From Pyrinomonadaceae bacterium (GTDB lineage Bacteria; Acidobacteriota; Blastocatellia; Pyrinomonadales; Pyrinomonadaceae), in contig JAIBCB010000001.1 in the NCBI GenBank assembly GCA_019694355.1, forward strand, positions 835,001 to 899,000: a stretch of 64,000 bases of DNA, written 5' to 3'. Shown in pieces: positions 4,836 through 24,574 of this stretch; the first letter of the stretch is position 1, and the number at the start of each line of letters is the position of its first letter. The notes beneath the pieces were generated by a model, which saw only the letters and a list, made by a program, of their open reading frames with translations, ran no database searches and was not told the origin of the DNA. Made by a program: the position numbers and the translations under genes.

Positions 4836-5690
4836 CTAATTATTCTCGGCCCCATCACTATTTGGGTTCGATTTGGCGAACTCGCTGATATCGCCATTCG
4901 CTGACACTTCGAATACCGACGCACTCAACGGATAAGGCTGTTCGTCATGATCTTGGGTCAACTGTGCGCGTATATTAATAACGAAATCCTGCTCGCAACT
5001 GTTAGCCCAACAGATCAAAAAGTCCCTGTTGGGTATACCAAAATAAAAGGGAGTTCCCAAGTATTCGGCAAGCATCCCCCTTACTTCCGGAAGGACGACC
5101 CTGACGGCATCAAATCCGTCGAGCAGACTGATTACCCCGAATTGATTCGGCCCCGGGAACAGTTGCATCTGCAAGTCTTGACACCCTTCCCAAAGATTAG
5201 CCGTAGCACGCTCGTGCACGGTTTCGGTAGAAATCCCCCAACGGGCGAGATCTTCACCCAAAATATACGTATAGGTGTCAGCAGAATCGATCACGTAGGC
5301 GAGTAGCACCCCACCTCCGAACGGAGACGAAAGTATTGATAGTTTTTCGGCAAACTGAGCGGGCATCAACTGCGGTTTAACCGCAGCCGCTACAACGTCC
5401 CAAGACGTATTTTGGGAATCAACCGTTTCGAGAATACCCGCCAACCGCCCAAAGTGCTCGACCACAAGCTGACGCAAGGACGACTCGTTTTGAGTTCCCA
5501 ATAAGAAGGCGGAATGGATGTTGGTCAAGCCCAACGTATGCCCGTCCAATTTGATCGTCAACGGATCCTGGCAAGCCTCGTACGAAGACTCAGGGTAGAG
5601 GTCGTCGAGGAGCGAGATGACCCTTGCCTGAAAGGCTCGAAGTTCATCAAGATCGGTCTTCTTAAACAGTCGCGCAAACCGTGAGATCAT
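4836..5690 (-). CDS. DUF1444 family protein
   Basis: 284 residues, no signal peptide or membrane segment, so cytosolic. The sequence fits DUF1444 (Bacillus YtpQ-like): a central region with VKPQLMP, a conserved ATANLWE segment in the middle, VVLPEVRG and a PNRDFLICW stretch near the C-terminus. No catalytic motif is evident and the molecular function of the family is not established. It lies between yajQ (20 bases upstream) and the polyprenyl synthase (two bases downstream), in one transcription unit with them. Family assignment is by motif memory only. Confidence 0.6.
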   Translation of the reverse strand: MISRFARLFKKTDLDELRAFQARVISLLDDLYPESSYEACQDPLTIKLDGHTLGLTNIHSAFLLGTQNESSLRQLVVEHFGRLAGILETVDSQNTSWDVVAAAVKPQLMPAQFAEKLSILSSPFGGGVLLAYVIDSADTYTYILGEDLARWGISTETVHERATANLWEGCQDLQMQLFPGPNQFGVISLLDGFDAVRVVLPEVRGMLAEYLGTPFYFGIPNRDFLICWANSCEQDFVINIRAQLTQDHDEQPYPLSASVFEVSANGDISEFAKSNPNSDGAENN

Positions 5691-22739: not shown

Positions 22740-23093
22740 CTATTTCACCAACCGCAGCTTCAAAAGTCCGTAAATGTGAATGTAGGAGCTGATAACGGCA
22801 GAAAGTATCAGGAACGTCATCGGCAGATGGCCTATCGACGCCGGTGCTGAGCGAAAGATCACGCCAACGCCGATCCCAACGCCCGCAAATGCGAGCCTGG
22901 GTCGCAGCCATTTACCGAACGCGGGCACACCGTCGATCTCGATCAAAAGATAGGGCAGAACGAGCACCACTAGGGCGGTGATCGTCAATAATAGTGTGTC
23001 GAGCCCAAAGAACGTCGCCGAACGGGCAAGCTCGGCCGTCAAGAAGAATAACAAAACGCTTGTGTCCAGTGATCGATAACGATTGTGTGTCAT
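22740..23093 (-). CDS. Small multi-pass membrane protein
   Basis: 117 residues from the ATG with AAGGG before it; a longer frame upstream has no ribosome site and overlaps the XRE gene. Three or four hydrophobic segments are seen (about 15-30, 35-55, 65-80, 88-108). No recognised family. It follows the XRE regulator by 40 bases on the same strand, so the two are likely co-expressed and possibly work together, as in repressor/membrane-effector pairs (inference). Confidence 0.6.
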   Translation of the reverse strand: MTHNRYRSLDTSVLLFFLTAELARSATFFGLDTLLLTITALVVLVLPYLLIEIDGVPAFGKWLRPRLAFAGVGIGVGVIFRSAPASIGHLPMTFLILSAVISSYIHIYGLLKLRLVK

Positions 23094-23133: not shown

Positions 23134-23529
23134 TCACTTGCCCTTTCCGCCGCTGAACTGCGAGTAGGCAACACGGAAAAGCTCTGAGAGAGCGTCCGCG
23201 GTTTCGGCCGAAAGGTTCTTGTCGGCACGCAAATGGGCCGAAACGATCTCCGGCGTCGATTCGTGCGGGTAATAAACGACCGGCTCGACGTCCGCTCCCG
23301 CCTGCTTTTTCATCACGCGATCGACCGGCATATCGAGCCACTGGGTGATCCGGGCGATATTCTCGGCATCCGGCCTTCCCTTTCCGCTCTCGATACGCGA
23401 AAGCGTCGAAGCAGATACTTGCGTAACGTCGCCCACATCCCGAAGGCTGAGCTTCAATTCCTGCCTGCGCCGGCGGATAGCTTTGCCTAATTCATTTGTG
23501 TCAATAAGACTGTCGTTCTTGAAGACCAT
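23134..23529 (-). CDS. XRE-family helix-turn-helix regulator
   Basis: 131 residues. Residues about 13-70 form a Cro/C1-type HTH: LGKAIRRRRQELKLSLRDVG, SASTLSRIESGKGRPDAENI, ARITQWLDM. The C-terminal half has no recognised sensor domain and ends in a flexible GGKGK tail. A strong GAGGAGAA site precedes the ATG. The gene is divergent from the Rad52-family gene, and three matching dyads lie in the shared region, so it is probably the repressor of itself and of that gene (inference). Confidence 0.88.
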   Translation of the reverse strand: MVFKNDSLIDTNELGKAIRRRRQELKLSLRDVGDVTQVSASTLSRIESGKGRPDAENIARITQWLDMPVDRVMKKQAGADVEPVVYYPHESTPEIVSAHLRADKNLSAETADALSELFRVAYSQFSGGKGK

Positions 23530-23575
23530 AGGTTCTCCTCATCCTCCATGAGTGTTCGTGCAAAGATGCACAATG

Positions 23576-23679
23576 TGTTTCACGTATAAAACATAACACA
23601 GGAAAATTTTAATTGCAACACCTTGTTTCGTGCTTGCAACAAATAAATTTATCTGATACGATGTTTCATAGATGCAACG
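23576..23679. promoter_or_regulatory. Three 18-base dyads between XRE and Rad52 genes
   Basis: TGTT-N10-AACA occurs at 23576-23593 and 23624-23641, and TGTT-N10-AACG at 23662-23679. All three also share TGTTTC at the left and two share TGCAAC or TTGCAAC at the right. The second covers the -35 and the third the -10/start of the plus-strand promoter. Position and regular form suggest operators of the neighbouring XRE protein. Confidence 0.6.
23634..23662 (+). promoter_or_regulatory. Promoter of the Rad52-family gene
   Basis: A -35 TTGCAA at 23634-23639, a 17-base AT-rich spacer and a -10 TACGAT at 23657-23662. The start would be near 23669, leaving a leader of about 200 bases before the coding start. 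Confidence 0.55.
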
Positions 23680-23872
23680 GCTGCAAAGCGAATGTATCAA
23701 TGAAGAGAGTTGAAAAGCTGAGCGAGACCCGATGCCTGTGGGACCTCGCGAACAGGGTCAGAGGTTTGAGGACGACGGTATTCCATTCGGGCGGCAGGCG
23801 GCCCGATATTGTGGAAGCTGAAACGAACGTCGAGATCCGAAGACCGAACAACACACTAGGAGAATTCACACA

Positions 23873-24574
23873 ATGAAGAACAACACTATCCAAAAGAATA
23901 GAAGCGTGCAGGAAGCAGAGGCCGAGGCATCGAACGTCGTCGATTTTTCGACGACGCTTAAAGGGTTGAGCGAGACGGTCGATCCGCACCTGATCCGCAA
24001 GCGTGCTGGAATGCGCGACCGCAACGGCCATACAAAGATGGTCGATTACGTCGAATGGCACACGGTTGCCGACATTCTCGACGAAAAGGCACCGAACTGG
24101 CAGCACGAGATCCGCGACCTTCGCCCGATCGGCGACATTATGACCGTCACGGTTGCGATCACGATCGATGGCGTTACCCGCGAAGGCATCGGAACCGGGC
24201 GTGCGACGAGCGAGACCGGAATAAAAAAGGCCGAACACGACGCCTTAAAGCGTGCGGCCGTGAAATTCGGCATCGCGCGTGAACTGTATAAAAAGGAATT
24301 TGACGAGATCGCCGAAGCCGAAAGCGAGCCTCAAACTACCGCGATCACCGATCCGATCGCCCGCAGTCTTGGCGATATGATCACCGCAAAACAACTCGGA
24401 ATGATCCGCTCGATCGGCAGGAATTCGAACATCAATGTTGAGGATGAGTGCAAGGAGATGATGCGTTGTTCGGTCGAAGAGCTTTCAAAGCGTGCGGCAT
24501 CCGATCTGATCGATCATCTGCAGACGATCTCGCATCGCGGCGGCACGGTTCAGCCAATGCGTCGGGCCAGCTAA
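23873..24574 (+). CDS. Rad52/Rad22-family single-strand annealing protein (DdrA-like)
   Basis: 233 residues. The central region (about 50-145) has the Rad52-family pattern: a YVEWHTVADILDEKAPNW helix, strands ending VTVAITIDGVTREGIGTG, then KAEHDALKRAAVKFGIARELY. Bacterial members such as Deinococcus DdrA and phage Sak bind single-stranded DNA ends and promote annealing in repair. The C-terminal 60 residues form a separate helical tail. It has an AGGAG site before the ATG. Divergent pairing with an XRE regulator, and absence of phage genes around, suggest a chromosomal damage-response gene rather than prophage recombination (inference). Confidence 0.82.
   Translation: MKNNTIQKNRSVQEAEAEASNVVDFSTTLKGLSETVDPHLIRKRAGMRDRNGHTKMVDYVEWHTVADILDEKAPNWQHEIRDLRPIGDIMTVTVAITIDGVTREGIGTGRATSETGIKKAEHDALKRAAVKFGIARELYKKEFDEIAEAESEPQTTAITDPIARSLGDMITAKQLGMIRSIGRNSNINVEDECKEMMRCSVEELSKRAASDLIDHLQTISHRGGTVQPMRRAS

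Follow-up and report, generated by a model that had tools for sequence, protein, structure and literature searches.

A probable LexA-independent, SOS-like regulon under a CapH/DdrO-type XRE repressor in Pyrinomonadaceae-like acidobacteria

The window, i.e., the whole stretch of 64,000 nucleotides analysed here, comes from a genome that close relatives and taxonomy identify as that of a Pyrinomonadaceae-like acidobacterium. In this window, a gene for an XRE-family regulator and a gene for a Rad52/Rad22-family protein (hereafter xre and rad52) are arranged divergently around an intergenic region of 343 nucleotides. The locus contains the following features:

22740..23093, minus strand: small membrane protein, 117 aa counted from ATG, third member of the gene trio, directly 3' of the XRE gene in 34 relative loci
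23134..23529, minus strand: XRE-family regulator, 131 aa, predicted repressor (HTH_3, E 5.8e-13)
23558..23571, no strand: weaker, degenerate fourth dyad GTGCAAAGATGCAC (in relatives AGTGTCAC-GGATGCACT), from the intergenic alignment
23576..23593, no strand: operator dyad TGTTTCACGTATAAAACA, adjoining the xre -10 element (23.6 bits; alignment footprint)
23590..23618, minus strand: predicted xre promoter, TTGCAA-17 bp-TATGTT, beside the first dyad and conserved in the genus
23624..23641, no strand: operator dyad TGTTTCGTGCTTGCAACA, over the predicted rad52 -35 element (20.1 bits; footprint)
23634..23662, plus strand: predicted rad52 promoter, TTGCAA-17 bp-TACGAT; CTTGCAAC and TAC--TGT are invariant in 37 aligned intergenic regions
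23662..23679, no strand: operator dyad TGTTTCATAGATGCAACG, over the end of the predicted rad52 -10 element and +1 (23.1 bits; footprint)
23712..23765, plus strand: RNA hairpin, CUG-A-stem-CCUG loop-stem-GAA-CAG, supported by covariation
23873..24574, plus strand: Rad52/Rad22-family protein, 233 aa, predicted single-strand annealing protein (PF04098, E 7.6e-11)

The initial annotation described an XRE gene and a small membrane protein gene reading away from a Rad52-like gene, in agreement with the HTH_3 and PF04098 matches and with the conservation of the membrane protein frame. The PF04098 match of the Rad52 protein (42.6 bits) lies above the curated cut-off of 20.3 bits. This protein also matches the Erf-like/SSAP group in PHROG, and 37 of its orthologues could be aligned; a PADLOC search returned no match for it, and its structure model was poor (pLDDT 56). 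The XRE protein has Pfam domains of the HTH_3 type only, without an S24 peptidase domain. Alignment of 41 orthologues shows a helix-turn-helix (HTH) domain followed by a conserved C-terminal module with the motif AHLRAD-NL, and a structure prediction from a shallow alignment of 5 sequences gave an HTH domain plus two C-terminal helices. It matches the capH profile of PADLOC over residues 12-116 (E 2e-7) and, judged by its sequence, passes as a CapH-like protein, whose C-terminal module would serve dimerisation.

The locus is flanked by trp/aro biosynthesis and M16 peptidase genes, and no phage relative of XRE or Rad52 was found at E 1e-5. We therefore rejected a prophage or phage origin; the initial annotation had likewise placed the genes outside a prophage. 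An 87-aa frame starting with TTG (23613-23876), which spans much of the intergenic region, had no family match and was not taken as a gene, because the conserved features in this stretch are operators and RNA.

Rad52 and XRE are present in nearly all genomes of the genus, and in 34 of 37 they share a contig in divergent orientation, a count that includes one genome (G023) with a longer gap between them. This 2.3-kb gap holds operator pairs at 2888-2943 and 4878-4943 (L046), which suggests a local duplication or insertion. The xre-rad52 pair also occurs in other families of the class. Among 297 genomes sampled from the phylum, 23 contain an XRE protein of this type, every one of them in the same class. 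The initial annotation had suggested looking for the trio and its dyads in related genomes, and had named a lack of conservation as an argument against its reading. Gene trio, gene order and dyads proved to be conserved, so this argument falls away.

Some features of the other families are worth recording. In family f2, the Rad52 frame is longer, ~325-346 aa (L047:2565-3605, L048:2415-3452, L049:2504-3481), and includes a stretch rich in Cys and His (CSCAQFQER...), SWIM-like on visual inspection. Families f2, f4 and f6 share a small conserved gene with the motif KKSQILELF-G-T-IGEIA next to rad52 or xre (L047:1850-2434, L048:1816-2367, L050:1667-2266, L055:1500-1976); in f4 this gene is divergent from xre.

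The pattern TGTT-N10-AACA/G occurs three times within 104 nucleotides of the intergenic region, as the initial annotation had noted, on or near a rad52 promoter that is itself predicted. None of 20,000 mononucleotide shuffles of the 343-nucleotide region contained three such dyads. The alignment of 37 intergenic regions shows a strong footprint of ~115 bp. The dyads had also been described as phased, which does not hold for neighbours: their centres are 48 and 38 bp apart, or 4.6 and 3.6 helical turns, so that neighbouring dyads are out of phase and only the first and third are nearly in phase. This 48/38-bp spacing is invariant across the genus, and the 38-bp step is found in other families and genera as well. 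The second and third dyads cover the predicted rad52 promoter, which has 8 of 12 matches to the sigma-70 consensus and was therefore missed by a consensus scan. Since neither the rad52 nor the xre promoter reaches the generic consensus scan, both are treated as predictions.

Downstream of these elements, the rad52 leader contains a hairpin whose stem covaries, with 99.5% of cells paired and 15 two-sided changes, a level reached in none of 500 shuffles. In most species a CAGGC/CAGAC segment farther downstream could pair with the loop, a likely pseudoknot. A covariance model of the hairpin gave 21 hits in 20 genomes, all in rad52 leaders (homologues L321-L340), and an Rfam search with the leader RNA gave nothing meaningful. 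The hairpin is absent from three species with a short intergenic region. Possibly, though this is a guess, it plays a role in translation control or message stability of rad52.

The dyads are not confined to this locus. A position weight matrix (PWM) built from the dyads of XRE-rad52 intergenic regions only (108 sites, 18.5 bits) describes an 18-bp palindrome with the consensus TGTTTCA-N4-TGAAACA. At a cut-off of at least 9 bits, all 30 genomes tested had a site before recA (-54 to -125), as had all 31 genomes tested before the mutagenesis gene imuA (-33 to -72), at similar distances from the start codon across the genus. At the same cut-off, no site was found upstream of the control gene, M78 type 1 (0 of 20), the reversed matrix gave no sites at recA, imuA or M78, and after base shuffling ~3% of the recA and imuA upstream regions reached the cut-off. 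Across the genus (37 genomes), a strict pattern matched at roughly 90 sites and its reversed control at 2. Four of the strict sites are in the window genome, at rad52/xre, a DinB-superfamily gene, imuA and recA. Sites picked in relatives without regard to the genes lie before ruvA, SRAP, DinB-like, recA and imuA genes, and some at genes of unclear role. The ruvA site, present in 9 of 24 genus genomes and absent from the window genome, touches the start codon. A second M78 gene (type 2, with HExxH) has an upstream site in 18 of 30 genomes, the window genome included. The xre-rad52 region has three clustered sites, versus one, occasionally two, at other genes.

The ssb gene has only a weak site (5.4 bits), and we do not claim it as a target. 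Elsewhere in the window genome, conjugation-like and Rhs-like frames surround a strong operator, TGTTTCATGCTTGAAATA (23.4 bits; L094:2283, G000:C8:48782). In several relatives, an operator separates a cluster containing SRAP from the divergent gene of a DUF3854 (zinc-finger, primase-like) protein (L255, L276, L270). Upstream of recA in f2, f4 and f6 we found no good site, only a single weak one (9.8 bits), and the wide regulon is therefore described for this genus only.

A candidate for the sensor comes from gene order. An M78 (IrrE-like) gene comes after xre in f2, f6 and two further genera of the family. The window genome has an orthologue of this gene, M78 type 1, which is unlinked to xre (G000:C1:195343) and matches the PADLOC profile capP. 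All 29 linked or orthologous copies have the zinc motif EExxH (EE[VIC][SC]H) rather than HExxH; with the first zinc histidine missing, the cleavage step is weakened as part of the explanation. Copies with this motif were located at L087:1595-2194, in L205-L224, and in L047-L049, L051, L053, L054, L056, L312 and L316, and these proteins show a C-terminal HTH-like hint in Pfam. M78 type 2 is likewise unlinked to xre (L088 ~2155-2598, orthologues L175-L204). It is predicted to be an inducible peptidase inside the regulon, and would be an alternative to the EExxH protein for cleavage of the repressor. On plasmids, full-length homologues of XRE are encoded next to canonical HExxH ImmA/IrrE peptidases or in divergent orientation to multiubiquitin genes. 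A plasmid homologue that shares the layout of XRE was aligned to it by hhalign over both the HTH domain and the C-terminus (prob 98.8). CapH/CapP has been reported beside multiubiquitin operons (PMC13373217), and ssDNA has been reported to activate PprI and CapP (PMC10904395).

Our preferred explanation, which we regard as probable, is a LexA-independent, SOS-like regulon under an autoregulated XRE repressor of the CapH/DdrO type that is relieved by DNA damage, likely via the M78 partner. At the sequence level, the analysis establishes that the operators are conserved and lie in predicted promoters, which genes they precede, and that the partner is linked to xre in relatives. From these findings we infer that the XRE protein binds the dyads and acts as a repressor, that DNA damage triggers the switch and that derepression comes from the M78 partner. 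XRE would bind the 18-bp palindromes and repress its own gene, rad52, recA and imuA(-imuB), and, depending on the lineage, also the DinB-superfamily gene, ruvA, SRAP and the inducible HExxH M78 peptidase. DNA damage would lift this repression, most likely via the IrrE/CapP-like M78 partner, and the additional repressor then made would reset the switch. We favour a DNA-damage alarm because the three-part switch recurs in front of other repair genes, recA and imuA among them, and does so even in genomes without a detected LexA. The initial annotation had envisaged a self-contained module controlled by damage or stress. Control by damage through XRE seems likely from the sequence data; self-contained the module is not, because the same operator precedes recA, imuA and other repair genes.

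It is unlikely that another regulator with the same sequence preference, LexA-like or a second XRE, acts at the recA and imuA dyads, which would leave XRE in control of only itself and rad52. Within the genus, 11 of 37 genomes do have a LexA-type domain, one genome in f6 has both XRE and LexA, and one genome of the genus (G014, assembly 92% complete) lacks XRE, rad52 and M78 type 1 while keeping operators at recA, imuA and the DinB-like gene (L129, L156, L246), which may reflect recent loss, an assembly gap or another binder. However, the window genome and most of its genus gave no LexA match in Pfam, and the recA and imuA sites are also present in genomes without such a match, that of the window included. 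In f2, XRE-bearing genomes are without a good LexA match and XRE-less genomes have one. Moreover, the matrix was derived from the XRE locus only, and the xre genes of f2, f4 and f6 are preceded by the same motif, partly without rad52 alongside, which ties the motif to XRE. XRE is thus the likely binder of the dyads.

We consider it very unlikely that XRE represses rad52 as a purely local, CapH-like module related to stress or phage, with secondary or unused sites at recA and imuA. Such a module would fit the clustering of three sites at this locus compared to one or two elsewhere, and CapH/CapP pairs usually control an adjacent operon (PMC13373217); yet, every genus genome tested has recA and imuA sites at a similar distance from the start codon, and neither XRE nor Rad52 has a phage relative that we could find. 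Least likely is that XRE acts as an activator. This role has been proposed for DdiA of Myxococcus, an XRE protein that resembles it in size and layout, belongs to a damage response independent of LexA and would activate dnaE2 directly or indirectly (PMC12288472). Against this reading, the sites lie over the predicted -35, -10 and +1 of rad52 and at the xre promoter, and DdiA reportedly does not regulate its own gene (PMC12288472).

If the regulon under the XRE repressor is real, a soil lineage would obtain a concrete and testable answer on how recA is controlled, in which the repressor is named, the operator defined, the targets listed and a sensor proposed. To our knowledge, recA control in LexA-less bacteria outside Deinococcus is largely open. 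It would also place a bacterial Rad52 at the centre of an SOS-like response, and it suggests a link between regulators of immune operons (CapH/CapP) and the core SOS-like response. A bolder and rather doubtful extension is that the whole class of soil acidobacteria has its damage regulon under a CapH-type XRE instead of LexA, with the signal passing through an M78 protein that lacks the HExxH site. Derepression would then depend on a non-classical peptidase or a non-proteolytic antirepressor. We found no description of this regulon in the literature on Acidobacteria, in which subscription journals were covered in part.

DdrA of Deinococcus is a Rad52-like protein. Its gene is controlled by the XRE repressor DdrO via two RDRM sites (PMC8533742), so that the suggestion of the initial annotation that no such control circuit for a bacterial Rad52 homologue had been described was too strong. 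Similar to DdrO/IrrE(PprI), the system described here has a small XRE repressor whose own gene is inside the regulon (PMC8533742, PMC8072749, PMC5552922). As in the Deinococcus RDR regulon, a palindromic operator precedes recA and the gene of an annealing protein (ddrA there, rad52 here), the gene set extends to a Holliday-junction gene (ruvB in Deinococcus, ruvA here), and the gene of the M78 protein is without an operator. In contrast, the operator is TGTTTCA-N4-TGAAACA instead of the RDRM, the M78 protein has EExxH instead of HExxH, and imuA is part of the predicted regulon. The similarity of the XRE profile to DdrO is confined to the HTH domain. The best Foldseek match of the XRE model was DdrO (6jq1), but at E 1.1e-3 and TM 0.38, and a second aligner covered mostly residues 4-78.

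The targets recA, imuA-imuB, ruvA and SRAP and the (here predicted) autoregulation of the repressor resemble the LexA-controlled SOS response, although LexA combines a winged HTH with a self-cleaving S24 domain, whereas the repressor here has an XRE fold without S24. DdiA of Myxococcus xanthus, likened here by description, shares the XRE type, the LexA independence of the damage response and the HTH domain with two C-terminal helices, but it is reportedly not autoregulated, activates dnaE2 directly or indirectly and has no known peptidase partner (PMC12288472).

CapH/CapP consists of an XRE repressor and an ssDNA-activated ImmA/IrrE peptidase (PMC13373217, PMC10904395). Our XRE protein matches capH along nearly its whole length, the linked M78 protein matches capP, XRE and M78 form a gene pair in sister lineages, and plasmid homologues of XRE lie beside multiubiquitin operons. 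Conversely, the targets here are core DNA-repair genes (rad52, recA, imuA and others) rather than an adjacent immune or anti-phage operon, and the partner is unlinked in this genus and has EExxH instead of HExxH. Because of the unlinked partner, the EExxH motif and the different targets, we file the system under neither CapH/CapP nor DdrO/IrrE; by analogy, it would work like both of them, applied to an SOS-like gene set.
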